The notes under the pieces: model-generated
The model's database searches: none
The model's input: only the letters and a program-made list of their open reading frames with translations
What the model was told of the DNA's origin: nothing
Made by a program: the position numbers and the translations under genes
Shown: piece after piece, positions 1-64,000 of the stretch
Position numbering within the stretch: the first letter of the stretch is position 1
How the letters are laid out: each line of letters begins with the position of its first letter
NCBI GenBank assembly: GCA_027972325.1
Contig: JAPMOS010000025.1
Span: forward strand, 186,001 to 250,000
Direction: 5' to 3'
Source: Paratrimastix pyriformis
Taxonomy: Eukaryota > Preaxostyla > Paratrimastigidae
DNA: 64,000 bases

Positions 1-2785
1 GTCGTTGTCGCAGTGCTTGCCCGAGATCTGGTAGAGCTTGTTGATCAGCGTGCCCAGGTCGCGGCCCAGCTGGCGCCACTGCTGGTGCTGGTAGTCCTCG
101 ATGACGTTGTACACGTCGTCATAGACGTCTGTCGGGTCGGGCGCCCAGGACACACCACAGATGAAGACGCGCGTTAGACCCGGCCGGGGCAGTGGGGGGG
201 ACGAGCCAGGGACGGGCCAGGGGCGCTGATCGATCAGTACGGACCGACGCCGGCGATGACGATCTTGACGATGGACTCGACGTTGATGGTGTGGAAGTGG
301 AGCAGCTTGACCAGGTTGTCGATGACGATCGACAGCTCGGGCACCCCGCAGGCCGTGACGCCCTGGCCGACCTCGTGGAGGCAGTCGGCGAGGTCCAGCA
401 TGGCCTTGGAGTACTTCTTGGCCTGGAAGTCGGCGTTGGCCTGCTCCAGGTACTTCCAGGCCCCGTCCAGGTCCTGCTCGCAGGCAACCAGGTGCGACAG
501 GACAACCTTCATGGCCTCCAGCATGCCCTCAACAACCTGGCAGGCTGTCGGGGGGGGGGGGGGGGGGGGGGGGGTGGGGAGGGGGGGAGGAACAGGGGGA
601 AGGGGCGATTCGTGAGTTGATGAGGGCACAGGGGGGGAGGAGGGGAGGGACAGACCGGGGGTGTGGCAGCCGATGAGGCGCAGGTCGGCGATGATGGCGC
701 CCAGGGCGGTGGCGGCCCGGGGGTAGTCCTTCTGGGACATGGCCGTGAAGAAGGCGTACAGGTCCTCGTACATGTCGACGCCCTCGACCATGACGTGGAT
801 GATGTCGTCCACGAAGGAGATGTTGGCCAGGCCCAGCTTCTGGGAGTACTCGACAATCAGGTGGCCGATGGTGGGCACCCCGCACGCGTCGACGGCGTTG
901 CCGAGCTTGGCCATGCCGCTGGCGGCCAGGTCGGTGGCGGCCTGGTACTGCTTGTTCTCCCAGTAGTGCTGGGCCTGGACAAGGTCGGCCCAGCCCGCGT
1001 TGACGGTGCTCTCGCACTGGCGCAGGTCGGGGATGGCCACGTGGAGGACGCGCAGGATGGCCTCGATGGCCACGCAGGCGGGCGACGAGCAGCCCGACTG
1101 CTGCAGCCGGGAGAGCAGAACGGCAAGGTCGCGGCCGAAGGCGTCGTAGTTCTTGGCGGCCAGGTCCTTGTACGCCTGGTAGATGTCCTGTGGGTCGAAG
1201 AGGGCGAGGGCGAGGGTGAGAGGAAGGCGGATCAGGATGTGCAAGGAGAAGGCGCTGGCGCAGAGCAAAAAGAAGGCGCTGGCGCAGAGCAGGGGAGTGC
1301 CGGGGCTGGGGGCCGGACCTGGTAGAGATCAACCCCATCGACGATGACATGGACAACGTCGTTGACGACGGTGATGTTGGCCAGGCCCAGGGCCTTGGCC
1401 TCGGCGACCACCAGGGCGGCCACGTCGGGCAGGCCGCAGTCGGAGACGGACTGGCCCAGGATGGAGAGGCCCTGGGCAAGCTGCTTGACGGCCGGGGCGT
1501 ACTGCTTCTGGGCGAACTGGGCGAAGGCGGCCTGGATGGTGTTCATGGCCCCGGTCATGTCAGCCTCGCACTGCTGCAGGTCGGGGATGATGATCTCGAG
1601 CATCTTCAGGATGCCCGTGACCACCTCGCACGACTGGGAGGTGCACCCCGTGGCGGCGATCTCCGTGACCAGGGTCGCCAGCCGGACGCCCATGTCGCGG
1701 TAGTTCTTGGTGGTGATATCCTGGGAGAGCTGGTACAGGTTCTGGTACACGTCAACACCTGTGCCCCACCCACCACAGTGCCCACCACCACAGTGCACAG
1801 TGAACGATCAGTCACCGGCGGACGAGGGGGGAGGCAGAGGGGGGAGGGAGGACGAGGATGGGTTCATGAGGCGGCGGACCGTTGACGAGCACCTTGACCA
1901 CCTGGTCGGAGATGACGACAACGTCGGCCAGGCCGAGCTTCTTGGCCTCGTCGGAGATCAGGCGGCCGAGGTCGGGCAGGCCACAGTCGTCGACGGCGTT
2001 GGAGATGGTGTACAGGGCTTGGGACAGCTGGACGACGGCGTCCTTGGTGTTCTTCTTCTGCATGTCGTAGAGGAAGGTGCCAAGCTGCTGCCAGGCCGAG
2101 TCGATGTCGGCCGTGCATTGCTTCATGTGGGGCAGCACCTGACCGAAGGCCTTCAGCAGGCCCTCAACGATGATGCAAGTCGGGGTGTTGCAGCTGGCGG
2201 CTTGAAGCTTCATCAGGAGGTCCGAAACGGCAACGCCGAAGTTCGTGTAGTCCTGAGAGGAGATGCTGTGGCAGAATCAGTTGAGAAGGAACAGTGGAGG
2301 GGGTAAAAAAGCAAACCTCTTGGCAATAGTCAAAAGATCGTCGTAAATGTTGGCGCCATTGACCAGAATCTGGACACCCTGGCTCAGAACGGTGATGTTG
2401 CTAAACAAAAAAATGAGACGCTCGGGAAAATTCGGCCAAAATAAACAGACGCAAGGTGGAGATCCTTGGCAACACCCTCAATGAGCTGGGCAACACCTTG
2501 CAGCTGGCAGGCGGAGAGAGCCTTGCCGGTGATATCGAGGGCATCTGCAAAGTCAAAAACGGCCTTCTGGTACTGCCGAGACTGGTACTCAGTAGAAGCC
2601 TTCTGGGCAAGCGCAATAGCCTGATCGACGTCGGTGAGGCACATGTTGAGATCGATCGAGAAACCAAGTCCCTGCAGCAAGCCTTGGATAAAACGGCACT
2701 CATTGGAAGTGCAACCATCGTTCATCTGACGCAGGGGCATCGCGAGCACAGCGGCCGCGAAAAAGGCGAAGAGAAAGAGCCGCAT
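1..2785 (-). CDS. Secreted tandem-repeat protein (3' end beyond window)
   Basis: Seven exons can be chained in phase: 2451-2785, 2317-2400, 1880-2265, 1319-1758, 656-1187, 245-544 and 1-128, the last running off the left edge. The protein opens with a signal peptide (MRLFLFAFFAAAVLAMPLRQ). It then repeats a roughly 145-residue, mainly helical unit at least four times, with a further copy entering at the edge. Each unit has conserved cysteines: a C-x-(S/T)-x-x-C pair near its start, a lone Cys about 30 residues later, and a CG(V/L)P motif before a hydrophobic stretch ending in a V-x-G-V-D-x-Y linker. Introns fall at or near the unit junctions, so the array probably grew by exon duplication. 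Paired cysteines and the signal peptide point to the secretory lumen or cell surface. I do not recognise the family and give no function. Exon structure is well supported. Confidence 0.8.
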
Positions 2786-3370
2786 TTCCGTGTGCAGTCT
2801 AGAGCCTTGGTTATTGAACGGCCTTTGTTCACTGCGAACGACCCTTTCGGTCTCGTGATCGAGCGACGTTTAATTTTTTTCTGAAATGAGAACAAGGTTG
2901 GTCAAGATATATCTCCAAACTGTGCCTCCGCGGAACATCGACACCGCACTGCATTTTGGGATGGACGGATGGGTGGGTGGCAATTTTGTTCCGACGGAGA
3001 CACAGAGACTCAGTGCAGGTGTCCCAACGAGGTCACCTTCTCTCTCTCTTCGGGATTTCGTGGCTGGATCGATGGCTGGTGGCTTGGCACCCGGTGGGCC
3101 TGGCGGAAGAGGTTCCCCCTCAAGGTCTTTTTCGGAAGTGCGTGCCGTGGCGCCTCTCTGGTGGGAGGGTCCCTCCAATCATCTGAACCCTTGGCCTCCA
3201 CAGCTCATCAGTCAGCCGGCTCTCCCTCCACCGCCATGACCGGGGCCGAGGGAACGGGCGAAAGTACACGTGGTGGCGCCGTCCCAGAGATCCAGGAGAT
3301 CGGGGGCCAGCCCTGTCGGCTTGGGTGAGAGCCTTCCACCGCAGCTCCGGCCATGCAGACATCGATTTCT
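2786..3370. other. Intergenic stretch, 585 bp
   Basis: This lies between the secreted-protein start and the DNMT2 stop, both on the minus strand. It should hold the secreted gene's promoter and the DNMT2 3' region. The short frames here show no family similarity and no splice-consistent chain. The AT-rich tract near 2870-2885 is the only compositional feature seen. Confidence 0.4.
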
Positions 3371-4861
3371 TCATTCCATGGAGAAGCCGGCCACGAGATA
3401 CCGGAACAAGACCCCCACCACTGCGGAGTTGAGCGAGTTGCCCAAAAGGCGGTATCGTTGCCGAAGCGTGACCTCCCCAAAATCAAGAGGGTGTCCGGGC
3501 ATGCCGGGCGGATCCTCGGGCGACAGGGGCCATGGAATCGATGGGGGACGGGGCACGTAGGGATCTTGTGGGGGTGGCGCTGGGAAGCAATGAAGCCGGG
3601 CAATTTCGAGGGGGTGGAAAAATCGGAGCTAAAAAAAGCAGCAGCACGATGGTCATCCCCCGGGCAATAGCAGCACGGACGTTGCCGTTGGCCATCCGAA
3701 ACACCGAGCCGGCCCCTTCCGCGAGCTTTGTGTATCCCTTCGTAAAGCAGCACGTGTGGTCATCCTGTGGCCCGACCAGGTCTGCAGGGCCGTCAGATTC
3801 AGGAGGCGGGCGCGGGGGACGGTCACGGACCCATGGCCTGGACTCGAGCGGCGAAGGCGGGGTAGGTTTCCAGCCAGAGGGACCGGTCGTCGTCATTCCG
3901 GCGGTCCATGAAAATCCCCAGGGGCGTGGCGCCCACCGCGTGGAGCCGGTATGATCCCCCGCCACAGCCCAAATCTCCATCACCCTCGGCCTCCTCCACT
4001 TCCTCCGTTCGTCCCGTCCCCACGGTTGTCTCTTCCCCCACGGGGATCGCAGCGGGGATCACGACCTCGGCGGGCGGAGCGGGGGCAGCCGAGGGGGGGA
4101 GCGAGGCCAGGAACCGTGCAAGGGTCTGGACCCACATCGGGGCGGCCGGGTCTGCCCAGCGAGGCAGCCCCGTTTGCACGGGGAGCGGTGGCCCTGGGTG
4201 CAAGGGAGGGATGGGCTGTGTTGGCTCCCGCTGGGGCGCAAGCGGGGCCGAGGCCACTCGCAACTTGGCCTATAGGCGGGCAGGAATGAGGTCGGTCAAG
4301 GTCGAACGAGCAAACAGACGAGAAGGAAAAAGCGGAGCCGGCTATTTGGGACCCCACAATCGACGGGGCTGATCAAATAAGCGCGAACGGTATATCCCTG
4401 AAGGCTGCGCGGTGACAAGGCCGATCCACAAATCAACAGACCTTCTCCAAGAGGGCCGAATACAGCATACTAAAACTCACGCTGCGCTGAAAAAGATGGA
4501 CATTCTCGAGAAGAATATATCTTGGCGGGTGGCACATCTCTCTGATACGTTGAGTGAGGCAGAGAAGGGCCGATGCCCGAATGTCGAGGTGGTCGCGCTG
4601 ATTACCCAATCGGGTGTAAGGTTGGCACGGGGGGCTCATTGTCCACACGTCTGCATCCCATGCGTCCAACTTCTTTGTGGTGAGAGAGCAGATGTCACCT
4701 GCGCGAGGGGTCTCCCCGAAGGAGGCCTTGTAAGCGGTATTTGCGACAGTGTTGGTATCGAATGCGCAAACGATATGGGTTGGAATCCCACTCAATTCAA
4801 GACCCATCCGCATCCCACCTATTCCGCTGAAGAACTCTAGCACCCGCAAAGGGGTTATCAT
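3371..4861 (-). CDS. DNMT2: DNMT2-type tRNA (cytosine-38 C5) methyltransferase
   Basis: Five in-phase exons: 4442-4861, 4320-4397, 3831-4269, 3681-3781 and 3371-3628, giving about 431 residues (human DNMT2 is 391). DNMT2 uses SAM to methylate C38 in tRNA anticodon loops. Motif I is FFSGIGG, motif IV has the catalytic Cys in SPPCQPYTR, motif VI is ILLENV, and motif VIII is CGVPNSR with LRFF after it. The DNMT2-diagnostic CFT signature is present as CCFTKGY. LRFFHPLEIARL then leads to motif X, YRLLGNSLN. All catalytic motifs are intact. The extra length is a Pro/Ala/Glu-rich insertion between motif VIII and the CFT motif. Donors are GTCTG or GTCCG; introns are 44-52 bp. The gene is divergent from RAD1, with 178 bp between the start codons. 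Family assignment is very secure. Confidence 0.95.
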
Positions 4862-5039
4862 CTATGATCGATGGACAGAGATAGGGGGGGCAGAAGGAGA
4901 AAAGAGGACAGAAGGAGAAAAGAGGGTTCCCAACCCGAAAGGTCCTATCAGCAACAGACCTGTCAACCGCTCCTCTGGACCGGATGTCGGCCACCGCTTC
5001 CTCTGGCCCCAGTAGCGGAGCACCGAGTGAGATCCAGCA

Positions 5040-7266
5040 ATGCAAGGTCTCATTTTTGCCGAAGAAATCCGCATCTTCTGTTTGGTACAGTTTCTTTGTA
5101 AATGCCGTTCCGCCAAGGAAATTGCCAATATTTTTGATGCAATTCATTTCAAAAAGGATGAGGTCTTGATATTGGTTGAATTTTCCTGAATCTTTTCCAG
5201 TTTGTGAGCATCCGCATCTGGGATCAGGGTCTTCGGTTCACCTTTGAAGAGGCCCACTCTCTCCAAGGGGTCGCGTTCATTAGAAAGGAGATGTTTGATG
5301 AGTATCATTTCTCCGAGCAAGAACCCCTTGATGTCCGTCCATCCCTCAAGCCATTCGTCCTCGACACTCCCGATTCTTTTTTCCCCTGCAGATGAACCTC
5401 AATCTCACATACATTCTGGATTCGCTCATGGTTTTCAGTGGCCAACCCGCCTCTCTCCAAATCTGCTATAAAGAGATCGGAGGTCCCTTGGTTTTCATGT
5501 CTGTCCGCCACCCACCCTGCTCCGGCCCCACCACGGTTGGCCACCTGGCAGGCTCCAGGACGGTTCTGTCGTGACGGATGCCTCCATCCAGACCCAAGAG
5601 GCTGAGGAACCCTCGGACTTTGGGTTTCCGGCGGAAGAAGTCGCCAACGAAGCCACCATCGAGGTGCGTCCTCTCGCGTTGCCATTTTTCTCACCCTGTT
5701 TGACTCACCGCTGCCCCCGACCCCGAGCAGTCTTCGTATCTGGCGGCACTGGACTGTGGCGAGGGTGCCAAGGGGACCATGACGATCTACTTCTGGGCCG
5801 AGGGGATCCGCATCAGCACCGTCACCGACCACGGCTCCTTCGAGGTCCGCTCATCCCCCCGATCGCGGCACTCGGCTCACGGCTTGCCTCGTCACCTTAG
5901 GTGGACTTCCCGCGCAGTTGCTTCGCACAGTTCGACTGTCACGTCGAGCAGGCCATGTCGTCTGTCGGCCCCCCCTCCTCATTCCTCCTCATTCTTTCTC
6001 CCATCTGCCATGGCCTGCTCCAGGTACGGGCAGCAGCTCTTCCAGCCCACCCTGAAGGCCGTCCCCAAGGCGGTGCACACGTGCATCCGGCTGAGCACGG
6101 CGGGCATCCTCTCGGTCACCCACCGCATCCGCACCGACGCCGAGACCCGCCAGGCCTTCGTCGAGTACTTCCTGCTGCCCACCGCCCCCTCGGTCGAGGA
6201 TGGCCCGGGGGCACCGGCCGGCGGGGCGGGGCCCCGTCCATCCCGCAGCTGCCTGCCGCCCTACAGCGGCGCCCCGCCACCTCCACTCGCAGCCCCACCG
6301 TGCCCCTGCCCCCGCCCAAGCGGCACCCCCTCGAACCGCCCCAGACACTGTCGCCTCCGCAGCGTCCGTCGAGCCCCCTCGAGTCGACCCCGCCGCCGCA
6401 GCTACCCCAGGAACAGCCCCAGCAGCCCCAGCAAGAACCACAGCAACCCCAGCAAGAACCACAGCAGCTCCAGCAACCCCAGCAGGAGCAACCCCAACCG
6501 CAGCCGCTGCCTGGCGGTGGAAGCGCGGCGGCGGAGGTGGTCGCCCCGTCGCAGGTGAAGTCCGAGCAGGACGCCCCGATGGAGGTCGAACCTCAGCTCA
6601 TCGCAGGCACCCAGCCGCCATCCCCCGCAGCCGCGCCCCCGTCGCCGCCACCCCCGCAACCTGGGGCGCTCCGAAGGCCCCTGCCCGCGCCCCTGCCTGC
6701 CCCATTGCCGCAACCTGGGGCGGCCAAGGTTGGCGACGACTCGTTGCAGTGGACGCCCCCCCAGCAGCTGGCCCCGGGCGAAGAAGGCTTCGAGGGCGTC
6801 GCGGAGGCGGCCGTGGTGCCGGCATCCCCTCCAGCCCCCGAGGACGAAGAGGGCCGCCCCGTGGCCCCACCCAGCCCTTCCTTCCTCCAGCGCCGGTTGG
6901 CGGGGGCCCAGTGGGCCGAGGGGTGGGATCGGGTCGACGAGGAGGACCCCCAGCCCCAGCCCGAGGTCGTCCCGGCCTCGCCCCGCCCCGCCCCCGGCCC
7001 CCCCTGCGGCGGCCCCACAGCCACACCCCGCCCAGCGCAGCCGCCTGTCCCCGCCGTCTTTGACGCCATCCCCCTCCCCCTCCCAGCAGCCAGTGCAGCC
7101 ACTTCAGGCTCCGCGCGCCGCTCCCCATACACCCCCACCCTCCGCTCAGCCCCAGCCCCAACAGTACCAGCCCTCGCCCGGACAGCCTCCCCCCAGCAGC
7201 GCGAGCCAGCGACAAACCCGTCACCCCCCTCGCGCCACCCCTCCCCCTCCAGCGCCAGCCCAGTGA
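5040..7266 (+). CDS. RAD1: RAD1-like 9-1-1 checkpoint clamp subunit with Pro/Gln-rich tail
   Basis: Exons 5040-5162, 5201-5332, 5392-5498, 5552-5663, 5731-5844, 5901-5959 and 6024 onward chain in phase into a PCNA-fold clamp protein. RAD1 partners RAD9 and HUS1 in the ring loaded at DNA damage to activate ATR-type signalling. Matches to RAD1 include the N-terminal DAIHF block, LRFTFEEAHSLQGVAFI, MNLNLTYILDSLMVF, the LQDG-x-VVTD strand followed by a TQEAEEP segment, and a C-terminal SVTHRIR...FVEYFLLP ending. RAD1 normally stops at that point. Here the frame stays open into a Pro/Gln/Ala-rich tail of several hundred codons, but the coding frame changes at least twice after about 6190 and I could not fix the splices. 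One candidate stop is at 7264-7266. A further coding-like stretch in another frame runs to about 7850. Core assignment is secure; the 3' end is not. Confidence 0.82.
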
Positions 7267-7950: not shown

Positions 7951-7989
7951 CTCTATGTACAGCCGAAGGCCCCAGCTCAAAGGCACAGC

Positions 7990-8958: not shown

Positions 8959-9006
8959 GACGTTAGTCGGAGGAGGGGTGAAGAAAAACAACCTTCTCAG
9001 TTGAAT

Positions 9007-12000: not shown

Positions 12001-14084
12001 GGCGGCTGTGCGTGCACCTGGCCCGCCAGCTGATGGGCGTCCGCACCGACTGCACCAAGGCCCGCACCCCGGCCAACCCTTGCCCCTCGCGCCCCTCGCG
12101 CCCCTCTTGCCCTTGCCGCTCTTGCCCCTTGCCGCTCTTGCCCCTTGCCGATCTGCATGTCATTCCGACGACGCAGCTTCTCATCCGGCACATCGACATC
12201 CCCCGCCTCGTCCCATCATCCCATCCCCCTATATCCCATCCCATCCCATGGCACGCAGATTCTCATGCGGCACATCGACATGGACGCCACCGACCCGCCG
12301 CCAGCCCTCTCGCCCCGCCGGTCCGCCCCGGCCTGCCCATCCCCACCCCCGGCCGCAGCCCCATGACCCGCACCGGCCCTGGGCACCTCACCTCCCGCTC
12401 CTCCGCGCAACCTCCCCCCTCCTCCTCCTCCCTCCCTCCTGCCCTCCTGCCCACCCCCACAGCCGCTCGGTCTCTCCCTCGGCCGCCCCGCACAGCCTCG
12501 CCGCCCCGTGGGCCGATGCTCGTGGGTGCCGTGGAGAGCCCGCCCGAGGAGGGGCTGCCCCTGCCCCTGGGCGAGGCGGGGGGCCCCGAGCAGGGCGCCC
12601 TGCCGGCTGCGCTCTTCCTGGGGCTGCTGGTCGAGGTGCACCACGGCTCGCTCTGGCCCGCCCTCGCACACGAGCGGGACGTCTGGCTCTACGAGCGGTA
12701 CATGGCCACCGGTCCGCCCGTGCCCCCATGTCCCCATGCCCCCATGTCCCCATGTCCCCATGTCCCCATGCCCCCATGCCCCCATGCCCCCATGCCCCCA
12801 TGCCCCCATCCTCGCCGTGGGCCCGTGGGGGGGGACGGGAGGGCGATGCACCTGCCGGAGGCCCAGCTGCTCACCCGTGCGGCGGGTGGCTGGGCGACTG
12901 GTGGCTGCAGGGGAGGGCCTGCCGCCCGTGATGCCCCCGGGGCCGCTGACCCTGCCCGCCCTGGCCACGCGCCAGCCCGCCGCCCGCGGGTTCTCCCTCG
13001 GGTCCGGCGGCTCCCCGCAGCCCCCGCAGCCGCAGCCGCAGCCCGCCGGCCCTCCTGCCCCCCGCCCGCGGGCCCTCGCCGTGGCGGAGCCGGAAACTCC
13101 GCCCCCCAGCGGCGCCCCGATGGGCCTCCCGGGGGCACCCGCCGATGGGGCCCTGCAAGCCGAGCCGCCGGCCCTGGGGGAGGTGGCGGGGCCCACCCAG
13201 CCCCCCGGCCCCCCCACCGCGACGGCCGGCCCGCCGCCCTCGCGGGTCTCCCAGCTGGCCCGGCTGCTGCGGGCCCTCAACCTGCCGCCCCGCCCCGGGG
13301 CCGAAGACCTCGGGCCCGCCGAGGGCGAGGCCTCCCCAGCCGGCGACCTCGCTCCCACCCAGGGGCTGCCCGCCGCCCCCGAGGAGGACCGGCCCGAGGA
13401 GGAGCCGCCCCAGTCGGCGCGCCAGGAGGGGGCCCCCGTGGGCCCCGCCGGGCAGCAGGAGCCGCCCGAGGGGGGCGGGGGCGGGGGCGAGGGCGAGGGC
13501 GTGCCCATTGAGGGAGCCGAGACGGCCCCTGCCCAGCCGGCGGACCACCCCGGGCCGCCACCGTCGGCCTCCGGGCGCCACGAGGAGGACCCGATGCTCT
13601 CATGGGTCGGCCCCGCCCCCCACCTGTCCATGCCCATCCCCATCTCGTCACTGTCCTCGTTCTGCCCGCCCAGCCCCTGCTCACCCGTTCTCTCATCGGC
13701 GCCCTCCTTTCCGCCTTGGCGTGCAGTTTGTGCGTCGGCTGGGGGAGCTTTCCAAGGCCCAGCAGCAGGCCGACCCCGCCCGGCCGGGGCTCGACGCGGG
13801 GGCCATCATCCGCGCCCTGCAGGCCGACCTGGCGGGCCGCGCCTCGAGCGGGGCCGACCCCCACGAGTGGGAGCCCCTGGCCGAGCCCAAGGAGGTGGCA
13901 GAGGCCGAGGAGCCGCCGGCACAGGGCCCGCCGCCCACCGAGGAAAGGAAGGTCCGAAAAGAGCGGTTCAATGCGCTTTTTTTTTTTGAGCCGTCCCATA
14001 ATTTTTCCGATGTGCCTCCAAAGTGCCCTTATAAGGGGCGCCGGGTTTAGTGCTTCCTCGGAACCCCTTCGGGGGTCATCCGCA

Positions 14085-14115
<31 letters not shown>

Positions 14116-15426
14116 GGCCCCTGCGCAAGGATGACCTAATGTACTTCGAGAAAGGTACTCAATTTTTTTCGCCTTCATTTTTCGGAATCCATCTCCCAGC
14201 CGGACGACAACCCCATTTCGGTGCCCCTGCCCAGCCCGCAGCCCCCGCTCGCCGCAGTCCGGCCGAGCTCCCCGCCTGCCCCCGCCCCTGCCCCCGTTGC
14301 TGCCAGCGTGCCCCCCCGGGAGGCCGAGTTCGGGGAGGAGTTCCAGGAGGGGCTGGCCCGGGCCTGCGAGGCCTTCCTGGAGATGCTCCTCCGCACCGCC
14401 CGGGGCGCCCTGGCCCGGCTCCTGCGGCGTTCCGTGCCGGGCTGGGCGGCGCCCGCCGCCGACCGTCCGCCGGAGGAGCTGCTCCCCGAGCCGATCAGCC
14501 GCGCCATCCAGGCCGAGGCCCGCCGGGCCACCCAGGTCGGCACGCGGGGGAGGGGCCGCGAGAGGAGGCTGGGGAGAGGCTGGTGGAGAGACGGGTCCAA
14601 TCGGGGTGGTGGTGGGGCCGTGCCGTGATCGGGCGGGCGTGCGGGCTCACGCACCCGTCCCTTCCCTTCTGCCCCCTGCTGCTGCTGCTCCCGGTGGTGG
14701 CCCCCCACCTCCCCCTCCTTCCCCCCCAGGAAGCAGTCGACCAGGTGGTGGCCTCGCTGCTGGCCAGCCTGGCGGCCCTCCCGCCCGAGGCCAACGAGGA
14801 GCCTCAGCGGCCCCCATCCCGCACGCCCCTGCCGCCCGCCCCCGGGGCCGCCACCCTGACCCAGGACGATGTCGGCACCCCACCCACCCACCCACCCCCC
14901 ATCCCGCGCCCACCCCGCACAGCCACGCGCGCCCGACATGCTGCGCGCTGTTTGGCTTCCTGCCTGCTCATTCGGCTGCCCGTCCATGCGTTCCTCTTGC
15001 CCTTGGGGTGCGCAGCTGCGGGCGCACCTGTGTGCCCTGATGGCCCGCTGGGGCCAGGTCGGGTCCGCGCCGAGCAGCGGGCCCCCCTGGTGGCCCGGCT
15101 GGAGGCCCTGCAAGTGTATCGTCGCGGTCCGCACCCACCCCTTGCCCCTCCTCCCTCGTGTCTCGAGGCCCCACCTGACCGCGCGCTGCCTCCTCTGCGC
15201 CCCCCCCCCCCCCCCCCCCCCCCAGGCCGCCCCGGTGCGCCAGGCGGTGGAGCCGCTGGTGGCGTTCCTTTACACGCGGGCCTGCGAGATCCTCTTCGGG
15301 GCCGCCACCCCGGCGCCCTCGCCCGCCCCCTCGCGCGCGGCCTCCCCTGCCCTGGCGGCGCCCTCGCCCTCGCCCTCGCCCGCCCCCACCACCCCCATCC
15401 CATACCCCGTGAACGCCGCCGCCTGA
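9007..15426 (+). CDS. Large Pro-rich, helical protein of unknown family; host of the U6 gene
   Basis: The start is MAEHIEDLLRLLFNPEEIK at 9007, only 48 bp from the divergent gene at 8958. Supported segments include a LASLPPKQRDKILALLLQK block, a long Pro/Ser-rich region (about 9480-10380), YRTFRALIG followed by LGWLVRQVEEIYDAL, a YGIRSLVEQ / CWDLLANVEAHR / AELFGRFL module, the FLGLLVEVHHGSLWPAL region (about 12620), another Pro/Glu-rich stretch, and C-terminal helices with FLYTRACEILFG, ending TGA at 15424-15426. The FRALIG-to-FGRFL arrangement vaguely recalls coiled-coil axonemal proteins of flagellates; that is memory, not proof. Introns use GTCCG or GTCTG-type donors, and one of them (13952-14199) contains U6 snRNA. 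Several internal exon borders are unresolved, so treating this as a single gene is an inference from continuous coding character. Confidence 0.6.
12724..12815. repeat. Minisatellite of CCCCATG(T/C) units
   Basis: An imperfect array of short units reading CCCCATGCC or CCCCATGTC. It lies in an intron that begins GTCCGC just after the YERYMAT codons of the host gene, so it is not expected to be translated. Confidence 0.8.
13993..14004 (+). promoter_or_regulatory. PSE-like snRNA promoter element
   Basis: GTCCCATAATTT lies 57 bp upstream of the U6 start. The same 12-mer lies about 50 bp upstream of U5 at 35139-35150. Two copies upstream of two unlinked snRNA genes argue for a proximal sequence element bound by a SNAPc-like factor. 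Confidence 0.65.
14029..14035 (+). promoter_or_regulatory. TATA-like box of U6
   Basis: TTATAAG lies 21 bp before the U6 start. A TATA box downstream of a PSE is what marks U6 for RNA polymerase III in other eukaryotes; U5 lacks an equivalent at the same place. Confidence 0.6.
14050..14168 (+). ncRNA. U6: U6 spliceosomal snRNA
   Basis: The sequence begins GTGCTTCCTCGG with a 5' stem-loop closed over CCCCTTCGGGGG. It then matches U6 almost base for base: AAATTGGAACGATACAGAG with the ACAGAGA box, GATTAGCATGGCCCCTGC with the AGC catalytic triad, and the internal stem-loop bases GCGCAAGGATGAC. A short 3' hairpin (GTACTTCGAGAAAGGTAC) precedes a run of T that serves as the Pol III terminator. U6 forms the spliceosome's catalytic core with U2 and pairs with the 5' splice site. 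The gene lies inside a sense-strand intron of the 9007-15426 gene, about 100 bp after the donor. All catalytic positions look intact. Confidence 0.96.
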
Positions 15427-18240: not shown

Positions 18241-18862
18241 TCGCTCCTCAATCTTTGCGATACGCTCGTGACGCTTCCCTATCGTCACTTGTACCGGTGC
18301 CCCAATATGCGCCTGCGGATCTCGGCCTCCCGCCCGAACCCCATGTTGATTTTTGCGGTCGCCGTTGTGTCGATCTATTTGATTCTTGCCGGCATTGTGT
18401 ACGATATCATCATTGAGCCCCCTTCGGTCGGAAGCACTCAGGTCCGCCGTTTGGTTGCTATTCGGATCCCCTGATTTCTTCTTTTTCGTGCAGGATCCGA
18501 CCACTAAGGCCGTGGGACCTGTCAGTGTTATGAAATACCGTATCAATGGACAGTATATCATTGAGGGTCTCTCTGCTGGTTTCTTTTACATTCTGGGTGG
18601 TCTGTTAGAACACTCAAAGAGTGCTGATTTCACCTGTCTCCCCACGGCACAGGTGCCGCCTTCATCATGATGGAGAAAGGCACGCCCATCTGGCTCTCCT
18701 CGGGTTTGGTGGCATTCCTGTTCGCCTCCTCTTTCACCCTTGTTTTCTTCCGGCTGGTCTGTTGGACACCCTGTGCCCGCTTGGCTCCCGTGGAGTTTGT
18801 TTCTTGCTCTCACACGGGTCTCCTCTCCCCGAGCGCAGAAGATCCCCGGGTATCTCCACTGA
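18241..18862 (+). CDS. OSTC: Oligosaccharyltransferase complex subunit OSTC (OST3/6-associated), first codons unresolved
   Basis: Exons 18241-18441, 18494-18599, 18653-18756 and 18839-18862 join in phase and end at TGA 18860-18862. OSTC is an ER membrane subunit that links OST to the translocon for co-translational N-glycosylation. Matches are YRCPNMRL, a first membrane helix around LIFAVAVVSIYLILAG, the signature IYDIIIEPPSVGS (here VYDIIIEPPSVGS), YRINGQYIIEGL with the second helix, a third helix around WLSSGLVAFLFASSF, and the C-terminal KIPGYLH (human KLPGYLMG). About 144 codons are accounted for. The initiator ATG must lie in a small upstream exon between about 18100 and 18230 that I could not place. 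All three internal introns begin GTCCGC or GTCTGT. Confidence 0.92.
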
Positions 18863-19139: not shown

Positions 19140-20324
19140 CTAGAGGCTGGTGAGGTCGATGAGGACGAGGGTGACGTTGTCATCGGAGGACATCGATTTG
19201 GTGACCATTTTGCTGGCCACCGTCCTGATGTCCCCGCCCGCCGCGACAAGCTCGTCCTTGATGAACCGGGCGGCGTCCTGCGGTGGTGCGGATGTGGGTA
19301 TGCAGAGGAGGACGCGAGAGCGGCAGACCTCGTTGGAGAAGCAGTCCCACACACCGTCGCAGGCCAGGATGAGCGTGCTGCTCCATGGCTGCGCATGGGG
19401 GCCACACAGCGACGCGGGCGAAGGGGACGCGGGCAGCGGGGTGGGCACAGCCACCGAAGCGGCGGCGGCGGCGGCGGCGCCCACCACGGGGTGTCCCACA
19501 GGGGGCGGGCTGGGGCTGGAAGAGGAAGGCGACTCGTCGGGGGCCGCGGCCCGCCGGCTGCGACCTTTGCGCGGGGCTGGTAAGACAGCGGGCTTTTCCG
19601 GGGACAGCGCCACCACGGCCTCCGTGGGCGGGTGACGAAGGTTGTGCCGGAGCGGACCCACGGCCGAGGAGGTTCCCCGGCGGCGGATGGTCACAGTCGC
19701 GGACTCGGATGCGGCGGACGTCGGGCCCGTCTCCTCGGCAGGCTGGGAGTCGTCATCGATGACTTCGGTCTTGGTGCGCGCCAGAGAGGCGCCGCCCTCA
19801 CCGGCGGGCTGCGGCGAGTCGTCGTCGTCGATGATTTGGGTTCCCGTGCGGGGAAGGGGCGGTGGTGCGGCGGGCTCGCCGCTTGGGGTGATCTGGGTGG
19901 CACCGCGGGCAAGGGCCTGCGGTGTGGCGGGAGCGGCATCCGTGGGGGTTGGTACAGCGGTGTCAGTCTCGGTGGTGGCCAAGGCGCTTGCTGACTCGGC
20001 GGCCGTAGCCGCCGGCGGAGAGGGGGCGGGGACGGGGAAGACCGGCGGCGGGATCTGGAAATCCTTGGGCGTGTCCACCGGAAGGACCAAAGCCAGCCGC
20101 TTCAGAGTCTCGATGTGGTGGGCGCTCAACTCGGGCTCGTGGGACACGTAAGGCTTCAGGAAGCCATCCCCAAGGGCCCGAGCCGTCGCCAGGATGCCAT
20201 TGACACGATAGACACCGGCAAAGAGAACAGATCCGCCCAAGGCACCGATTCGAGCCCGCTCGGCCTGGGATTCGGGCTTGTGATCCGTCGTTCCGAAGAG
20301 GGCCTCACCTGGCGAGTGGCGAGG

Positions 20325-20356
<32 letters not shown>

Positions 20357-21184
20357 AGGTCAAACATACATACCAACAAAAGAACGGAACGGAGAACGGG
20401 GCTGGTGCTGGTGCTGGGGCTGGGGCTGGGGCTGGGGCGTACACGTCTGCCACTAATTCGGCTGTGCCCCCCACCATAGAGATATCGCCATCATCAAAAC
20501 GGACCATCGTGACAAATGACAGCCCGAGAGTCGCCGGCATGTGCCAAAAAGAGGTGACCCTGGCTCATCAGCGCCACAACAGCCGTGGTGCCACAATCAG
20601 GCTTCCGCCGGAACCGGCGAACCAGCCGATTGTGAATCTCCACCATCCCGGCGCGCAGGCGGTCGATCACATCGCCCAAGCCCATGGTCGAGCTCCGGTC
20701 TTCTTCAGTGAAACTGGTTGGGAGGGGCCTGTGACGGGCCGGAGGAAAAAGAGAACGGCCCAGACCTCCGGGAGAGACAGTCCACAAAATTTTGTGCAGC
20801 AAACTTCGCATACAGATCACCACCATGGCCATCAAAAACACCAAAAACGTGACCCTTTCCCGAGGTCCCGAGATCCAGTGGGGAGCAGACGTGCCCATCC
20901 TCCATGGAATCCCGCCGACCAATGGTTGAATAACAGAGCCACCGAGGCCCATCACCATCAAGATTCTCAACTTTTTCAATCGGGAAGTCAAAACCGCCCA
21001 GAGAATCAGCGTCAGAAAACGTCAGCTCACCAACTTCAGATTCCTCCTCATCCTCTTCCGTTTGCGGATTGATCCGTGAACGCGTCTTGCCGCGTCTCAG
21101 TTTGGGTTGCATGAAGAAGAGTTCTTCTGGATCTTCGGATTCTTCAGAACGGGCTTTCTTGGCTGGGATTCTCTTTTTTGGCAT
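19140..21184 (-). CDS. PP2C-family (PPM) Ser/Thr phosphatase with low-complexity insertion
   Basis: The start is MPKKRIPAKKARSEESEDPE at 21184, a basic/acidic N-terminus. Metal-dependent PP2C motifs follow in order: the RRDSMEDGH block, VFDGHGG, CGTTAVVAL, LAHAGDSRAV, a VYRVNGILATARALGD motif, ACDGVWD and SSDDNVTLVLI, ending at 19140. All acidic residues that bind Mg/Mn ions are present, so the enzyme should be active. Between the ARALGD region and ACDGVWD is a Pro/Ala/Thr-rich insertion of about 190 residues, lacking in typical PP2Cs. The roughly 210-bp intron near 20330 (donor GTCCGT) carries a long G homopolymer and GGGGCTG repeats. Targets cannot be inferred. Confidence 0.9.
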
Positions 21185-25152: not shown

Positions 25153-28100
25153 GCCCCCTGGTGCCCCATCCAGACCCGGCCGGCAAGGCCGCCTCCCAGC
25201 TGCTGGCCGAAGTCGTCACAGCGGATGGTCTGCCGGCATTCCCCCGGCCCCGGGTGCTGACCGTTCCTCCCAAGTCACCACGGCCCTCCTGCACAACATC
25301 ATCAACTACGCCCTGATCTTACCCGAGGATGCGCTCGAAAAGTGGGAGAGCGATCCTTGCGCCTTCTTCATTGCCGAAGACACGCCCGGCCTCCCCACCA
25401 TCCGGGTCTGCTTTGGTGTGTGCGCCTTCCCAATGGTGACCGACTTTTCCTCTTCCAAAATAGTGTGCGGGTGAAAGTCTGGTTTCCGAGTTGGTCAAAT
25501 TCCAGCCGTCTGCGGGTCCAGCTTGCCTCGCCCAGATGATCACCGAGATGGCCCAAGGTCCGTTTCCGTTTGTGTGGATGAACCATATGAAAAAAAGTCA
25601 TGCGTCAGCAGAACTGCGGAAATCCGAGGATCAGAATGGCGGATGTTTGGTAGATTGAGTATTTGGTTGTTTGTTCGGCAACATTCCGGGATGACAATTT
25701 TGATGAAATCTGTATTGCGATCCATTCAGTGAGCGATGGATCGTTTGAAAAAATAAACAAGGTGGAACGAAGACATGAGGACTCGAGGAAAAAGGAAGCC
25801 AAAGGTGCAAGCCGAGTCTAGGGTACCCCTCAGGGTGAAAGCTCCTTTCGCGGTATTTCGCCGAACCACCAGGAGAAAAACCATGGGTGCTGGGTCTGGT
25901 TTCTTTGTGTTAGGGGTTCAAATTCTATTATGATTATGCAACAATAGGAAACCTCACGGCCTTCACGCTGGGCGCAAGCTCCAGAAGCACCACTGTGTTC
26001 AGCGCTGGCACGATAAGGAATACAAGAAGCACCACTTCGGTGCTGCCCTTAAGGCCAACCCCTTCATGGGTGCCTCTTTCGCCAAGGGCATCGTTGTCGA
26101 CAAAGTGTCAGTACTATCTCCCATGCACCATTCTCATAACATCATTCACTCATAGTGGTGTTGAGGCTAAGCAGCCTAACTCCGCCGTTCGTAAGTGCGT
26201 TCGCGTCCAGCTGGTGAAGAACGGCAAGAAGATTGGTGCCTTCGTCCCTTGTGATGGTTGCCTCAACTTCATTGATGATAACGATGAGGTCCTCGTTTCT
26301 GGCTTCGGTCGCCGTGGTCACGCCAAGGGTGATATTCCCGGCATTCGTTTCAAGGTTGTTAAGGTGGCCGGCATCTCCCTCAAGGCCCTCTTCCTCCACA
26401 AGAAGGAGAAGATCCGCTCTTAAACCCTTGAGTTGCTGAACACGAATCCCGCACCCACCTCTTCTTTCTGTACTCGATCCCACAAACAAAACAGATATCT
26501 GGTGTCAGGATTGTCTGGGAGGTAAAAGATAACGAAAGGGGATAAAGAAAAAAATTTCATGTGCTCACCTCACATCCACAAACAGTTCCTCTGGACAACA
26601 ATCCCGCCATCTTGCGAAGGGAGGCCCTCTATCTCGCCGTGGGCAGCTGCGCCTACGATATGCTGGACGCTCTTCCCTTTCAGAACTGGTTTGACTCGAC
26701 GCTGCGTACCGAGCTGTGGACTCCCACCACCACGTGCCGGAGGTCTGCCTCCCCCCTCCCCCGGGGCAGACTGATTTCCTCCCGGCGCAGCGTGAAAGTG
26801 CTAAGGAAGCGGATCGCTTGGCTGATCGGCTCCTTCGTCATGCAGATCCCTCCCGAGCACTGGCTGGTCTGCTCCTCCTCATCCCCTCCCTCCCACACCG
26901 CACGCCGCCACAAGCCGGGTCTGCTCGCCCTTCTCGGAATCCCAGCTTCCCTTCTCGCTGTCTCACTACCCCCGCAGTCCGACTACGGCGCCCTCCTGGA
27001 GCTGATGGCCGACAAGGACATGGTCGTCCGGCTTGGCGCTGCCATGGCCGCGCTGGCCCGTCTGTCTGCCCCCCGGCCACCCTGCCCTCCTCCACGTTTT
27101 CTGCCTTTCCCCGCTCTCAGTGCTGCAGGACTTCAGCTTCGACCCGCACCAGTACGGCAGCGTCCTCGAGCCCACCTTGAAGGCCCTCATGCAGGCCTGG
27201 GCCCAGCTGAGCGACCCCGATGTGCTCCTCGAGCTGCTCTCCGTTGTTGGGGCCGTCGTGGCGCACTGCCAGGACCGGGTCTGCGTCGAACCCTCCCTGA
27301 TGTTTCACCCTCCTTCACTGCCTTCTTCTCGCAGGCCCAGCAGTACGGCGAATCGCTGGTGTGGGGGCTGGCCAAGCTGTGGCAACAGTTCCCCGGCCAC
27401 TCGCTGCTGCGCTGCTCCGTCATGGACGTCCTGGGCAAGCTGGTCGACGTCCGGACCGCCCGCCCTGTGGGGATGGCGCTCTTCTTCATGGAAGCCCGGA
27501 CATCGGTCACTCCATTGGTGGTCCGCGGGGGGGATGGGGTTTGAATGAGGGCCTGCAGGCGCTCGGCGGGACGGGCGGGGCTCCCCTGAATGCGGTCATC
27601 GAGGCCACCCGGCAGGCCCTGGCCGACCCAACCCTGGCCGAGGAGGGCGTCGACCTCTGGCGAAAGGTCGGCCCTCCCACCAACCTGCCCCTTCCCATCC
27701 GCCCGAACAGCCTGGGGTGGGGTGGGGGGGGGGGGGGGGGGGGGGGAGAGCCACCGCCCATCGCCTCAACCGTTCGTCTGGGATGGGGGCGGGCGGGGGC
27801 ATGTGCAGTGCATCGAGAACGCGGCCGCCATGACGGACGAGCTGAGCAGCTTCCTGCCCCTCCTGACGCCCCTCTCGCGGACCGCCGCGACCCTCCTCAA
27901 GCCCCTCACGGCCATCCGTCCGCCTGCCCCTGTCTCCCCTGCCCTCCTCCCCCACGCTCTCCTCGGCCCCGCTTCACATGCCTCGCTCGGTCGCTTCGAT
28001 CTGCGCTGCTGCTGCTGCCCCCACCCCGCCCGGGCAGTGGAGAACTACCTGCTGATGCAGGCGCCGCCCGGGATGCTCTACCCGGAGGCGCTCCTCTTCC

Positions 28101-43911: not shown

Positions 43912-45083
<1,172 letters not shown>

Positions 45084-49432: not shown

Positions 49433-50373
49433 ATGCAGCCCGTCTATCAAGTGATTGCTGTGAACCCCTCTCAGGTCTGTCTTGACCCCGTGACCTCTCA
49501 ACACATTCTTTTGGGGGGTCGATCGGCCAAATCATAGGATGTTTCCTCCGCTGCCCAGGTTAGCCGACGGCGGAATGGCGCCATCCGCCGCCAGCGCCAA
49601 AATCAGGCTCGAGGAATGCAGCAAATTCCGGTTCAGATTCGGGTTGCTCGGACTTTCAACCGTCCCCAGCGTGTGCGCCCAACAAAGATCGCGTCTGTAA
49701 AACCTCTTCCTTCTTTTCCCGTTTATATTTTTTTTTCTCCCGCCCCTACCATCTCCCCCCATTTTGTCGGTCATAGGGCTCAAAGGTCAGTGGATGATAA
49801 CTGCTTCTCGCGACCATTGCTAACCTTCATCGCCTCTCATACCCCCTTCTCTTGGCCACTCCAGCTTTGTGCCCGTCCAATACATTCAACCCGGCCAAAT
49901 TCGGGTTGTGACTGCTGCGCCCGGCAAGCGCGTCGTTACCACCACCGCTGTCCAGCGCCGCCGTCGTGCCGCCAAGCAGGCCGCCCAGCAGCAGCAGCAG
50001 CAGCAGGCCCAGGTGCAGATGCAGATGCAGGCGATGCCCCAGCCCGTCATTTTGATGCAGGCTCCAGCCCAGGCCGCAGTTCCTCGGCGTCGGCGCATCC
50101 CCCGACAGCAGCAGCAGCAGGCCCAGCTTCCGCAGCCGGCCTTTGTGCAGGTCCCCCAGGGCTTCATGGCCCAGCCCCAGTCGGTGGTGCTCCCCGTCAT
50201 GCAGCAGGCCCAGCGGCCCAGGTCGTTCGTGGTCGGTCGGGGTGGCCGCGGCCGGCGTGTCCGTCAGGCCCGCGGTGGCATGGTCTGTGGTTGGGCCTGG
50301 GAGGTGCTCCGTCCCGCCTTCTTCTTTGCTCACCTCTGTCCCGCCTTCTGCTTCGCAGATTGGCTACATGTGA
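49433..50373 (+). CDS. Basic Arg/Gln-rich protein, 202 aa
   Basis: Exons 49433-49474, 49559-49692, 49865-50282 and 50359-50373 join in phase. The start is MQPVYQVIAVNPSQ; the last exon encodes only IGYM. The protein is strongly basic: a VSRRRNGAIRRQRQNQARG segment, then QRRRRAAKQAA running into a Gln run, an RRRRIPRQQQQQ block and a C-terminal GRGGRGRRVRQARGG. Such Arg/Gln/RGG composition is typical of RNA-binding or mRNA-export adaptors (for example FYTTD1/UIF-like proteins), but no diagnostic motif is seen, so that is only a suggestion. All three donors are GTCTGT. It is divergent from eIF3j, with 97 bp between start codons. Confidence 0.75.
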
Positions 50374-50879: not shown

Positions 50880-51128
50880 GGGGGAGGGGGGGGGGGGGCA
50901 AGGGGCGGACCGCCAACAAATCGCATATCGGGCGGCGCAAAAGGGTTTGAGGCGCAAGACGGACGGATCGTGCCGCCTTGATCGATGTGTTTGTGTGTGG
51001 GGGAGGGGGAGGGAGGGGGGGGGGGGGGGTGCCGAAGCGCATGTGCGGGGCGGTTGTTGGCATCCCCCTGGGCCACCCAACGATGGCGGGCGAACCAGAT
51101 GAGGCAGCTGCTGCCCCGACCGAGGGCC
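50374..51128. other. Convergent spacer, 755 bp, homopolymer-rich
   Basis: Lies between the basic protein gene (+) and the UNC93-like gene (-). It contains G homopolymers at about 50572-50596, 50849-50898 and 51015-51029 and a GA-rich tract near 50740-50800. No coding exon or RNA gene is supported. Confidence 0.45.
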
Positions 51129-52965: not shown

Positions 52966-53040
52966 TTCGCCCGGGACAGTCTGTCGCGGCCTGAGGGATG
53001 ACGACGATCGATCTTTTCCTCCAAAAGCCGCAACCTTGCT

Positions 53041-58263: not shown

Positions 58264-58368
58264 CTCAACGGCTCGGCAGAGACCTACACGTCGAGATTGG
58301 TAGCTGTCACCGAGTTGTGGCTGAGCTGAAAAAACATCCACGGGCATCCGGCGAAGACAGTCGTAGCC

Positions 58369-61013: not shown

Positions 61014-61460
61014 AGAGAACAATAATACTCCGCACCACGGGCCATTGCCCAATGAAGCGGCGGCAACAGAAAAACAACAGAAAGATCGAAAAAATCGGGG
61101 GAGGGTTGGGTGGGGAGGGGATGCCGGAACGATTCGGAGAACTCTCTTCACCGCAGCTCGTGTGGATCCCCCAAAGAGATCAGTTATATTCTATTCCTTT
61201 TTGGGGGGTTCGTCATTCACGCCGCTCTTTCGTCGAGTTTCTCCCCCCAAATCTATTGATGATGGCCCCCCTCGGCATCCACGATTGCCTTTGGCACTTT
61301 TCTGTGTTGCCCACCTACGCCCACCTACGCCCAGGGGCAACATGTCTTCTACTCGTCGACGCGTGTTGCGTCCGTGTAAAAGGAGAATGAAATGGATGCG
61401 TTCATTGCCTCGTCAACGCAGGCTGCGCAAGAACCGGGCCAGGCGTCGTCCAGTTGACCA
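61014..61460. other. Divergent promoter region, 447 bp
   Basis: Lies between the chaperonin-like gene (-) and the J-like gene (+). It includes a short upstream frame on the plus strand that opens MDAFIASSTQAAQEPG (61392-61458) and stops just before the chosen ATG at 61461. This could be a short upstream reading frame. No RNA gene is seen. Confidence 0.4.
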
Positions 61461-64000
61461 ATGTCGACGAGCAATCCTGTGCCCCAAAATCCGTCACAGT
61501 CCCAGCCCCAACTAACGCCAACACTCCCAGTCGATTGGGAAAAGCGCAAGCATGATTACTATTACCTTCTCAGTGTACCCAAAACGGCGACCGGGCCGGA
61601 GTGCTTTCAATCGTATTATGCCATCCAAAAGGATTTCACAGCCACGAACCCTGATTTTGTGCAAGGTTCGCCTTCTCTCTTCACACCGTTGGTCACTGAA
61701 CACCGGGCTATTCTTCACCAGCGGCCGGGAAAGCTTACCTGACTCTCTCCGACAAGGCTAAAAAGAAAGTGTACGACGAAACCGGCGAAGTCGAGTGTCC
61801 GTGTGGAAACCTCATCCCTCACACCATGTCTTTTTTCGATCTTCTCAGCAAGCGACGAGGAGGAGGAGGAAGAGGAAGAGTACGATGGCGCGGAAGTTGA
61901 GGAGGAGGAGGAAGAAGAGGAGGAGGAGGAGGACGAGGAGGGTGATGAAGAGGGTGATGAAGAGGTTGCCGGCGAAGAAAGCGACGCCGAGTGCGAGGAG
62001 GGCGAGGAGGGCGAGGAAGACGACGACGAGAGCTCGTCCCACTACTACATGTGCCACGAGTGTGGGTCTGCACGGGGATCTCAGCCACTTGTCCCCCCCA
62101 CCCACCTCCCGACTCTTCTGCGCGATCTCCGCGCCCTTCTGTTCGATCTGTCTTTCCGCTCCTCATCACCCCCCCCCCCCCCCCCCCCCGCCACAGGAAG
62201 CGACACAAAAAACGCGATCGCGATATCCGCCGCTCCGCCAAGCGGGACGAAGCGGCGCGCGTGCGGTTGGAGGGCAAGGCCTTCCCCCAACTGCGGCAGG
62301 AGATCTCCGCCCTCGAGATCCAGATGCGGCCCCCAAGTACTCCAAGGGAAGGAGAGAAGCCGGGCGGGCCAGAGGCAGCCGACGCCATCAAGAAGAGAGT
62401 CGAAGCCTTCCGAACCATGTTCCGACGCATCACCGATCGTCCGTCGCCCCTTGACCATCGCATCCCTCACTCTCAGGTCGTTTTGTGCCGGGTGCTGACC
62501 ATCCCTCCCCTTCCCTCCCCTCCGCGGCACTTCGGCCTGCTCCAGGGGATGTGGCCCAGGTTGTCATGGACGAGCCCGAAGTGCTCAAGACCATCGTGCA
62601 CGGCATCGAGGAGGGCAAGCAGTCCGACGAGATCTGCGTGCATGCGTGCAGGCTGCTCATGCATCTGTGCAAAGGTCTGGACATGTGGAGGGTGGTGCGA
62701 CCAGTGGGGCGGGCGGCGGTGTCTGTTCCTCACGGCCCTGTGACAAAAATCGCCTTCTCGGCTTCTCTCCTGCAGTGCCTCGGCACCACGAGGTCATCCC
62801 ACTGACGGAGGTTTTTTCGCGCCTCAACCGGGTCATCGAGGTCTGCACCGACCAGAACGTGGCCTACGCCTCGTTGAGCTGCTTCGTGGCCATGCTCAAC
62901 CGTGGTCCGTGCCCTCTCCGGCCCAGGCCCGCCTCCGAACTCCGCCGCCTCTCCTCCTCCTTTCGCAGCCCATTGCACGCGGATCTCGGAGGCGATCGAA
63001 AACATCAAGGTGACCCGCCAGCGACTCCCGCAGCTGCTCAGCATCGCCTTTCGCAGCCTCAGGGATGCTGTCCAGTCGCTGCCCAAGGGCGCCGCTCCTG
63101 CCGCGTCTTCCGCTGCCGCTGCCGCTGCCGCTGCCGGGTCCGCCGGAGCCGCCAGTCGGGCGGCAGCCCAGCCCACTGCAAGCCCGCCCTCGGCCGCCAA
63201 TCCGGTCCAGTGGGCGTACTATTGCAAAATGGTCACCGTCATCTTCAAGCTCTTCTCTGTCGGCTCACTCTACCGTCCGTCCTTGGTTCCTGCTCCTGCT
63301 GCCATCTCGTGGTATTCGGCACACCTGCCACTCACGCCCACTCATACCGCTACACTTGGTTTGATGTCCCTTCAGCTGGCTTCCGGTCGCGGTACTGCAC
63401 TGAGGCTGCCATCAGCGGCATCATCGAGTTCGCGACGCTGCCCCTTCCTCCAGCCGAGGTGGCCGCCCGCATGCGCACCGCCGCCGCCACCTCTGCCACC
63501 TCTGCCACCGCCGCGACCGCCACCAGCCCACCCATGCCTGGGGCCACCCTGGGGCCCTCGACTCTGGCCAACAAGATCGGGTCGTTCGCGGTGTTCGATG
63601 CCGACGCGGCCATCTCGGTCGTCGTCACCGCGGCCGAGTGTCTCCTGGGCCTCGTCCAGCAGGGCGCCCCGACCGGTCTGTGGCCCGGGGGGATCGGTGC
63701 CGCATCCACTCGACCTTCTCTCCTCGCAGATCCCTACATGATCCTGCTGGGGAACAAGGCCAACTGCGCGCTGCTCGTCGACAAGGTGCTCCTGGCCTCC
63801 CCCTGCAACTCCCCCATGGCCGCCATCATCGCCCGGCTCGTCTCCGAGCTGTACTCCAGTCCGTGCCGCCCAGCACCCTGCCCCCCGCCCAACCTCTAAT
63901 GCTGTCCCCACGTCGTTTCTCCTCCCGCGCAGAGCTCCGGGTCTTCCCGCCCATCCCGCTGACCGCCGGGCTGGTGAGTGTGCTGGCGTACGTCTCCCTG
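61461..64000 (+). CDS. J-like domain protein with acidic stretch and helical-repeat C-terminus (runs off window)
   Basis: The start is MSTSNPVPQNPSQSQPQ at 61461. Residues from about 25 read DYYYLLSVPKTATGPECFQS, helix I-II of a J domain. After an intron, AYLTLSDKAKKKVYDETGEV gives helix III and the YDETGE end. The HPD tripeptide that stimulates Hsp70 is missing (IQKDF in its place). After a GTCCG intron comes a run of some 45 mostly Glu/Asp residues, then MCHECGKRHKKRDRD, a C-x-x-C segment followed by basic residues. In-phase splicing continues into ALEIQMRPP, DAIKKRVEAFRTMFRRIT and DVAQVVMDEPEVLKTIVHG, then armadillo-like helices (ICVHACRLLMHLCKGLD, QNVAYASLSCFVAMLN, AISVVVTAAECLLGLVQQG) to the window edge. 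The family of the second half is not recognised, and the two halves could still be separate genes. Confidence 0.55.

Follow-up and report, generated by a model that had tools for sequence, protein, structure and literature searches.

In the metamonad flagellate Paratrimastix pyriformis (Preaxostyla, Metamonada), the signal that marks 5' splice sites and the 5' arm of U1, the small nuclear RNA (snRNA) facing it, have very probably switched together. GURAGU donors of the major spliceosome would have given way to GUYYGY, in most cases GUCUGY or GUCCGY. The only U1 detected would have changed with them, from U to A at nucleotide (nt) 5 and from U to G at nt 6. The stretch analysed, called hereafter the window, is 64,000 nt of contig JAPMOS010000025.1 (positions 186,001 to 250,000, G000:C168:186001-250000). 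An earlier note had described its donors as GTCYG instead of GTRAGT, a form that should break pairing with a standard U1. The searches covered the P. pyriformis assembly of 56.06 Mb in 495 contigs, which may be a filtered form of the published one (56.6 Mb, 633 scaffolds, PMC10703272; papers are cited by PubMed Central number, PMC).

Donor sites across fourteen genes

Introns were placed with a purpose-written protein-to-genome spliced aligner, which charges the same for a GT as for a GC donor, takes AG as acceptor and leaves positions +3 to +6 unscored. Fourteen genes were aligned: RPL10, DNMT2, RPS23, OSTC, SNRNP27, METTL16 and eight CCT subunits (eight loci on eight contigs; a ninth chaperonin-like locus, on C51, was left out). 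Among the 74 introns placed, 57, from 13 genes, passed the confidence filter: a score drop of at least 5 with the donor forbidden, no nearby gap, at least two identities upstream and at least three downstream. The main count leaves aside the other 17, and OSTC contributed none of the 57.

Inspection of the 57 high-confidence donors revealed a strong preference for C at +3 (50 donors, against six with T, one with A and none with G). The base at +4 was a pyrimidine in 52 (T in 32 and C in 20; G in three and A in two), that at +5 nearly always G (G 54, A 2, C 1) and that at +6 mostly T or C (T 30, C 20, G 5, A 2). The last exon base was G in 47/57. GTCYG accounted for 44 donors and GTYYG for 49, the exceptions to C at +3 being six GTT and one GTA, whereas GTRAG, the canonical GURAGU consensus of U2-type introns, was found in 0/57. 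The proportion of C at +3 (50/57) was far above its background of 0.344 after 1640 GT dinucleotides of the same sequences (binomial p ~1e-16). T at +4 was modestly enriched over background among GTCYG words (32/52, p 0.025). The pattern was not confined to the window, as the eight CCT genes, METTL16 and SNRNP27, all outside it, gave 50 high-confidence donors with C at +3 in 43. For all 74 introns, the counts at +3 were C 61, T 8, G 4 and A 1, with three GC donors, none of them within the 57.

All 57 high-confidence introns were GT-AG under the donor and acceptor choices allowed. When any donor dinucleotide was accepted before an AG acceptor, GT was still found in 64/78 donors, and in 48/49 high-confidence ones. 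The minor (U12-type) donor is RTATCCTT; none of the 23 hexamers recorded at the donors of the 74 introns starts with GTATCC, in a run that excluded AT-AC ends and with U11 and U12 not searched.

For the window itself, published P. pyriformis proteins bore out the GTCTGT and GTCCGT donors claimed for DNMT2 (two of each, protein P0121) and RPL10 (one of each, P0001). The six introns of these two genes all agree with the published proteins and are all GTCYGT; these proteins come from gene models built with RNA sequencing hints (PMC10703272). The spliced RPL10 join was 100% identical to the P. pyriformis protein over the 200 residues queried. The GTCAGT donor of RPS23 was also recovered where it had been claimed. 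For OSTC, a GTCCGC intron was placed as expected, its exact boundary being ambiguous by protein alone (score drop 0). RAD1 gave one weak tblastn match (5532-5663), and in both RAD1 and the ZNF706-like gene the alignment was too weak for placing introns. The introns of eIF3j and of the basic protein at 49433, the first RPS23 intron and two OSTC introns were left out of this re-derivation. Overall, the prevalence of C at +3 described from the window letters is confirmed in the genes aligned. The window features concerned are:

3374..4861, minus strand: DNMT2 gene, five exons; P0121 reproduced, 431/431 residues
4398..4441, minus strand: DNMT2 intron, donor GTCTGT; P0121 mapping and spliced alignment
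4270..4319, minus strand: DNMT2 intron, donor GTCTGT; P0121 mapping and spliced alignment
3782..3830, minus strand: DNMT2 intron, donor GTCCGT; P0121 mapping and spliced alignment
3629..3680, minus strand: DNMT2 intron, donor GTCCGT; P0121 mapping and spliced alignment
43915..44661, minus strand: RPL10 gene, three exons; P0001 reproduced, 218/218 residues
44533..44579, minus strand: RPL10 intron, donor GTCTGT; P0001 mapping and spliced alignment
44240..44285, minus strand: RPL10 intron, donor GTCCGT; P0001 mapping and spliced alignment
26107..26155, plus strand: RPS23 intron, donor GTCAGT; spliced alignment to a human RPS23 sequence
18442..18493, plus strand: OSTC intron, donor GTCCGC; spliced alignment, exact boundary ambiguous by protein alone

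Transcript support came from CCT4. The protein P0241, derived from transcript entry GAFH01001239, matches the CCT4 join at 460/460 residues and fixes 7/7 introns at the positions given by homology; the accession series GAFH01000000 contains the 454 transcriptome of this species, under its former name Trimastix pyriformis (PMC3596361). With both intron ends left free, six of the seven boundaries were unchanged, and a repeated G let the remaining one shift by a single base. The donor sequences are GTTTGT (three times), GTTTGC, GTCTGT, GTCCGC and GTCTGC, the GTTTG forms occupying the first four introns found and GTCYG the last three. Since the GTTTG introns agree with a transcript-derived protein, the minority of donors with U at +3 is real.

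U1 genes and their pairing with the donors

The Rfam U1 model (RF00003) detected eight loci in the genome spanning model positions 1-166, with E values of 3.7e-13 to 2.0e-10, in a search where 41 of 992 first-look candidates were scored. All eight full copies, two of them read on the other strand, start with AUACAGACCUUG and not with the canonical AUACUUACCUG. Nt 5 is A for U and nt 6 is G for U in 8/8, so that the arm holds ACAGACC, not ACUUACC. The altered 5' arm reads AUACAGACCU. A DNA search with the U1 body returned the same eight full copies and one 32-base fragment. The altered U1 5' end predicted in the earlier note, with G or a purine opposite +3 and +4, was thus present in every full copy, G6 lying opposite +3 and A5 opposite +4.

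Each U1 copy is preceded by a CCCATAA element, which was also found upstream of the U5 gene of the window, of 4/4 U6 copies and of the single U2 sequence read. It appears to be a shared snRNA promoter element, often lies inside CGTCCCATAATTTTTCC, and in all four U6 copies is accompanied by a TTATMAGG box closer to the start. Counted by hand, 59-60 bases separate it from the RNA start in U1, and 59 do so in U2, which puts the U1 start at the place expected from the promoter. A pattern made of CCCATAA, a spacer of 40-68 and ATACNNACCTNG, open at nt 5-6, gave eight sites, all with AG, and none in the control. Because the element also stands before the window U5, the U6 copies and U2, the U1 genes are tied to the P. 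pyriformis genome, and contamination as their source was rejected; the eight U1 contigs include none of those carrying the aligned genes, and the link between them rests on the promoter.

As to the stem-loop architecture of U1, three of the eight copies were aligned to the whole length of the model, and this alignment has several non-standard pairs. One copy is predicted to fold with a z-score of -2.84, and its minimum-energy fold would also pair part of the 5' arm. In this copy, stem-loop II is capped by a GAAA-type loop, CUCGAAAGGG, instead of UUGCACUC, the loop bound by U1A; U1A binding may therefore have been lost. A six-frame search ignoring introns did not identify a U1C gene. It gave one zf-U1 match (G000:C86:24809-24916), which resembles WBP4/FBP21 and not U1C. 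LUC7 matches were found at two loci.

The reverse complement of U1 nt 1-12, CAAG|GUCUGUAU, matches the donors. In the proposed pairing, U1 would read the donor in the normal register, C9, C8 and A7 lying on G-1, G+1 and U+2. G6 would then face C at +3 (or U, by wobble), A5 would face U at +4, C4 would face G at +5 and A3 would face U at +6, with C at +4 and +6 presumably tolerated opposite A. G6 can pair with the +3 base, C or U, in 56/57 donors. Counting G-U pairs, the native U1 end forms more pairs than the canonical one with 48 of the 57 donors, as many with eight and fewer with one, the means being 7.98 and 6.21 pairs. For all 74 donors the numbers were 58, 11 and 5. The mean duplex energy, computed for unmodified RNA, was -9.2 kcal/mol for the native and -4.3 kcal/mol for the canonical end; nt 5 and 6 of U1 are pseudouridines in human and yeast. 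When all 16 dinucleotides at nt 5-6 were ranked by mean pairs, AG came second and UU thirteenth.

The U6 box and a proposed handover of the donor

The window contains one U6 and one U5 gene:

14061..14167, plus strand: U6 snRNA gene, ACAGAGA box intact (GAUACAGAGAAG); Rfam RF00026, 96.7 bits
35194..35313, plus strand: U5 snRNA gene, loop I GCCUUUUACU intact; Rfam RF00020, 57 bits, one copy read

All four U6 copies found in the genome are identical over 107 nt, with ACAGAGA unchanged. Nine full U2 matches were found, and the one read has GUGUAGUAUCUGUUC, the canonical pairing sequence. Judged from their genes, the U2, U5 and U6 copies read keep the canonical pairing sequences.

U6 reads GAUACAGAGA, and AUACAGA is common to U1 and U6. 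In the register known from other organisms (for +4, PMC10581693), ACAG of the U6 box would lie on +3 to +6 of the donor, where it can pair with C, U, G and U. With G-U pairs allowed, GUCUGU can form four pairs with U6 at these positions, compared to two for GUAAGU. For the 57 donors, four pairs were counted in 17, three in 24 and two in 16. A5 of U1, suboptimal for pairing by U1, is exactly the U6 letter. The earlier note had offered an altered U1, or recognition relying on U6, U5 or proteins, as alternatives. The first of them is supported by the U1 genes, but the two do not exclude each other, since pairing of U6 with +3 to +6 of these donors is also possible.

We consider it probable, with less assurance than the joint switch itself, that the two substitutions turned the U1 arm into a copy of the U6 ACAGA box. 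The donor would then pass from U1 to the U6 box in a like-for-like strand exchange: the four bases +3 to +6 would be paired first by U1 and next, through the same letters, by U6. Introns across the genome would have shifted along with the snRNA, METTL16 and SNRNP27K being retained. The identity between U1 and U6 is plain in the genes, and a double selection of the donor would be its functional meaning.

METTL16 is the writer of N6-methyladenosine (m6A) on U6. It is encoded at G000:C332:38824-39153, with a Pfam match and an NPPFF motif; the Pfam family also has bacterial members. The protein aligned over 283 positions, across introns, to a human METTL16 sequence. SNRNP27K is encoded at C9, and its residue aligned to human Met141 is conserved. 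METTL16 is present in P. pyriformis, a metamonad, whereas Parker et al., who sampled 33 species, found none in the Excavata among them (PMC10581693).

Pfam scans of 20 open reading frames of the window yielded no intron sample. They gave a protein phosphatase 2C gene (19140-20540, minus strand, PF00481, E 2.2e-23) as the sole match above cut-off, and one ATG17-like match below it.

Competing explanations and comparison with other lineages

Several results weigh against the joint switch as set out above. The U1 matches score 50.8-60.2 bits, below the Rfam curated cut-off of 69.5, and U1 and its 5' end are read from the genes. The donor sample consists of 14 genes and strict patterns, not of a full junction logo. 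Mean pairing with the donors would be higher for GG at nt 5-6 than for AG (8.33 versus 7.98 pairs), because 20/57 donors have C at +4, mismatched to A5, and five Fisher tests revealed no compensating strength elsewhere in these donors (lowest p 0.23). Since G5 would fit better than the actual A5, U1 pairing alone is not a full explanation.

In a strict genome-wide pattern search, AAGGTCYGT followed by a spacer of 22-52 and TTYYAGG was found at 15 sites, which include one identical and one near-identical pair, versus 2 in the reversed control, and AAGGTRAGT with the same spacer and end at 1 site versus 2. The annotation-free counts were mixed, and count against the joint switch in part. Four AGGTCYGY words occurred 28 times in the window (5 reversed), in support of the pattern, and 63 times in 200 kb of contig C441 (45 reversed), a weak excess; AGGTCTGT occurred only 3 times on the latter, versus 16 reversed. 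A crude scan for intron-like segments starting with AG|GTCYG gave 5 versus 4 reversed in the window and 10 versus 4 on C441, and with AG|GTGRG, 6 versus 0 in the window, and was not specific. Under a second-order Markov model of 264 kb, AGGTCCGT was observed 24 times for 6.0 expected, and AGGTCTGT 8 times for 6.2, a weak excess. GGTGGGT and GGTGTGT were likewise over-represented, probably due to microsatellites. TG and GGT microsatellites are dense in the window and in other loci, GGTGGTGGT being present 231 times on both strands of the 264 kb versus 4.8 expected. As these counts are mixed, the argument is built on the donors placed in genes, on the transcript match and on the U1 genes.

That donor choice is driven mainly by U6, the U1 change being secondary or minor, is possible but in our judgement the less probable course; it is compatible with the joint switch and would shift weight within it. 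CUGU at +3 to +6 is the perfect complement of ACAG in U6, which is unchanged in 4/4 copies found, GUCUGU has the advantage of four U6 pairs over two for GUAAGU, and 41/57 donors give three or four. In Streblomastix, moreover, A, U and G are conserved at +3 to +5 among 21 introns (PMC1501061), so that U at +4 may predate C at +3. However, if U1 pairing were irrelevant, one would not expect U1 to differ at exactly the two facing positions in 8/8 copies, and G at -1 in 47/57 donors also fits U1 or U5. A second, undetected U1, canonical or with G5, serving part of the introns is improbable. The 20 donors with C at +4, which G5 would pair, the small part of first-look candidates scored and the diplonemid S. 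specki, in which a canonical U1 is accompanied by a variant (PMC12621601), speak for it, whereas the promoter-tied pattern yields AG only (8/8), the DNA search adds to the eight full copies only the short fragment, and GTRAG donors are absent from the 57.

The shift at +4 could also be ascribed, not to U1, but to a lost m6A machinery, as in some yeasts, for which Parker et al. (2023) relate U at +4 to the loss of METTL16 and SNRNP27K (PMC10581693). This is at least as improbable as a second U1: a METTL16 methyltransferase domain with NPPFF and an SNRNP27K with the residue aligned to human Met141 are encoded, which makes their loss an unlikely cause. Scarcely credible, finally, is the view that the GTC pattern is a by-product of base composition or of junctions chosen by eye. 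The window is indeed GC-rich (60-74% per 4-kb block), C follows GT at 0.344 in these loci, and the annotation-free counts are mixed. But G follows GT just as often (0.347) and is found at +3 in 0/57 donors, the aligner was blind to +3 to +6 and still returned GT in 48/49 high-confidence donors when any dinucleotide was allowed, and the pattern is already contradicted as an artefact by the CCT4 transcript agreement (7/7) and by the U1 change. GC bias, a coexisting canonical U1 and loss of METTL16 or SNRNP27K as the cause were considered and rejected.

Compared to canonical U1 (RF00003), the U1 of P. pyriformis has a body found by the covariance model, a 5' arm of the form AUAC..ACCU, the same pairing register as judged by sequence, and multiple copies; it differs by AG for UU at nt 5-6, by donors GUYYGY versus GURAGU and by its score below cut-off. 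Compensatory pairing between U1 and donor was reportedly obtained by Zhuang and Weiner in 1986 with engineered U1 suppressors (cited in PMC11732430). These are a laboratory allele, whereas the change in P. pyriformis would be a natural switch across the genes sampled. The GUAUGU donors of budding yeast, Giardia and Streblomastix share U at +4 and G at +5 with P. pyriformis, but have A at +3, where P. pyriformis has mostly C and a changed U1. Giardia U1 stays ACUUAC (PMC3510501), and U1 is ACUUACC in Saccharomycotina and the outgroups searched (PMC10581693). Streblomastix is among the oxymonads, which belong to Preaxostyla (PMC10703272; PMC1501061).

The nearest precedent found is the second, C-rich U1 of S. 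specki (PMC12621601). It is also a natural change of the 5' arm, but this C-stretch variant stands beside a canonical U1 and canonical donors, whereas in P. pyriformis 8/8 full copies and most donors are changed. In Cyanidioschyzon merolae an snRNA change also faces +4, but in the ACAGA box of U6 (cited in PMC10581693); this species has no U1 genes (PMC11732430), whereas P. pyriformis has a canonical U6 and a changed U1. No account of GTC donors or of a changed U1 in Paratrimastix was found in the published text accessible to our search, which left out supplements, most subscription papers and preprints.

A stepwise route from GURAGU to GUAUGU and then to GUCUGU appears plausible; the change of U1 nt 5 would accompany either step, and that of nt 6 the second one. 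Relatives such as P. eleionoma and the oxymonads make the order of events testable. As a rule, U1 ACUUACC is regarded as invariable. A change of U1 nt 5 from U to A was put forward by Parker et al. as one that could compensate a +4 change from A to U, and they reported U1 as invariant in Saccharomycotina and outgroups (PMC10581693). In P. pyriformis all eight full U1 copies detected have this proposed change and the adjacent one at nt 6, with donors that match. In such lineages, gene prediction tools trained on GTRAGT may not work. The organism would thus provide a natural compensatory experiment on donor recognition, one that can help separate the contributions of U1 and U6.

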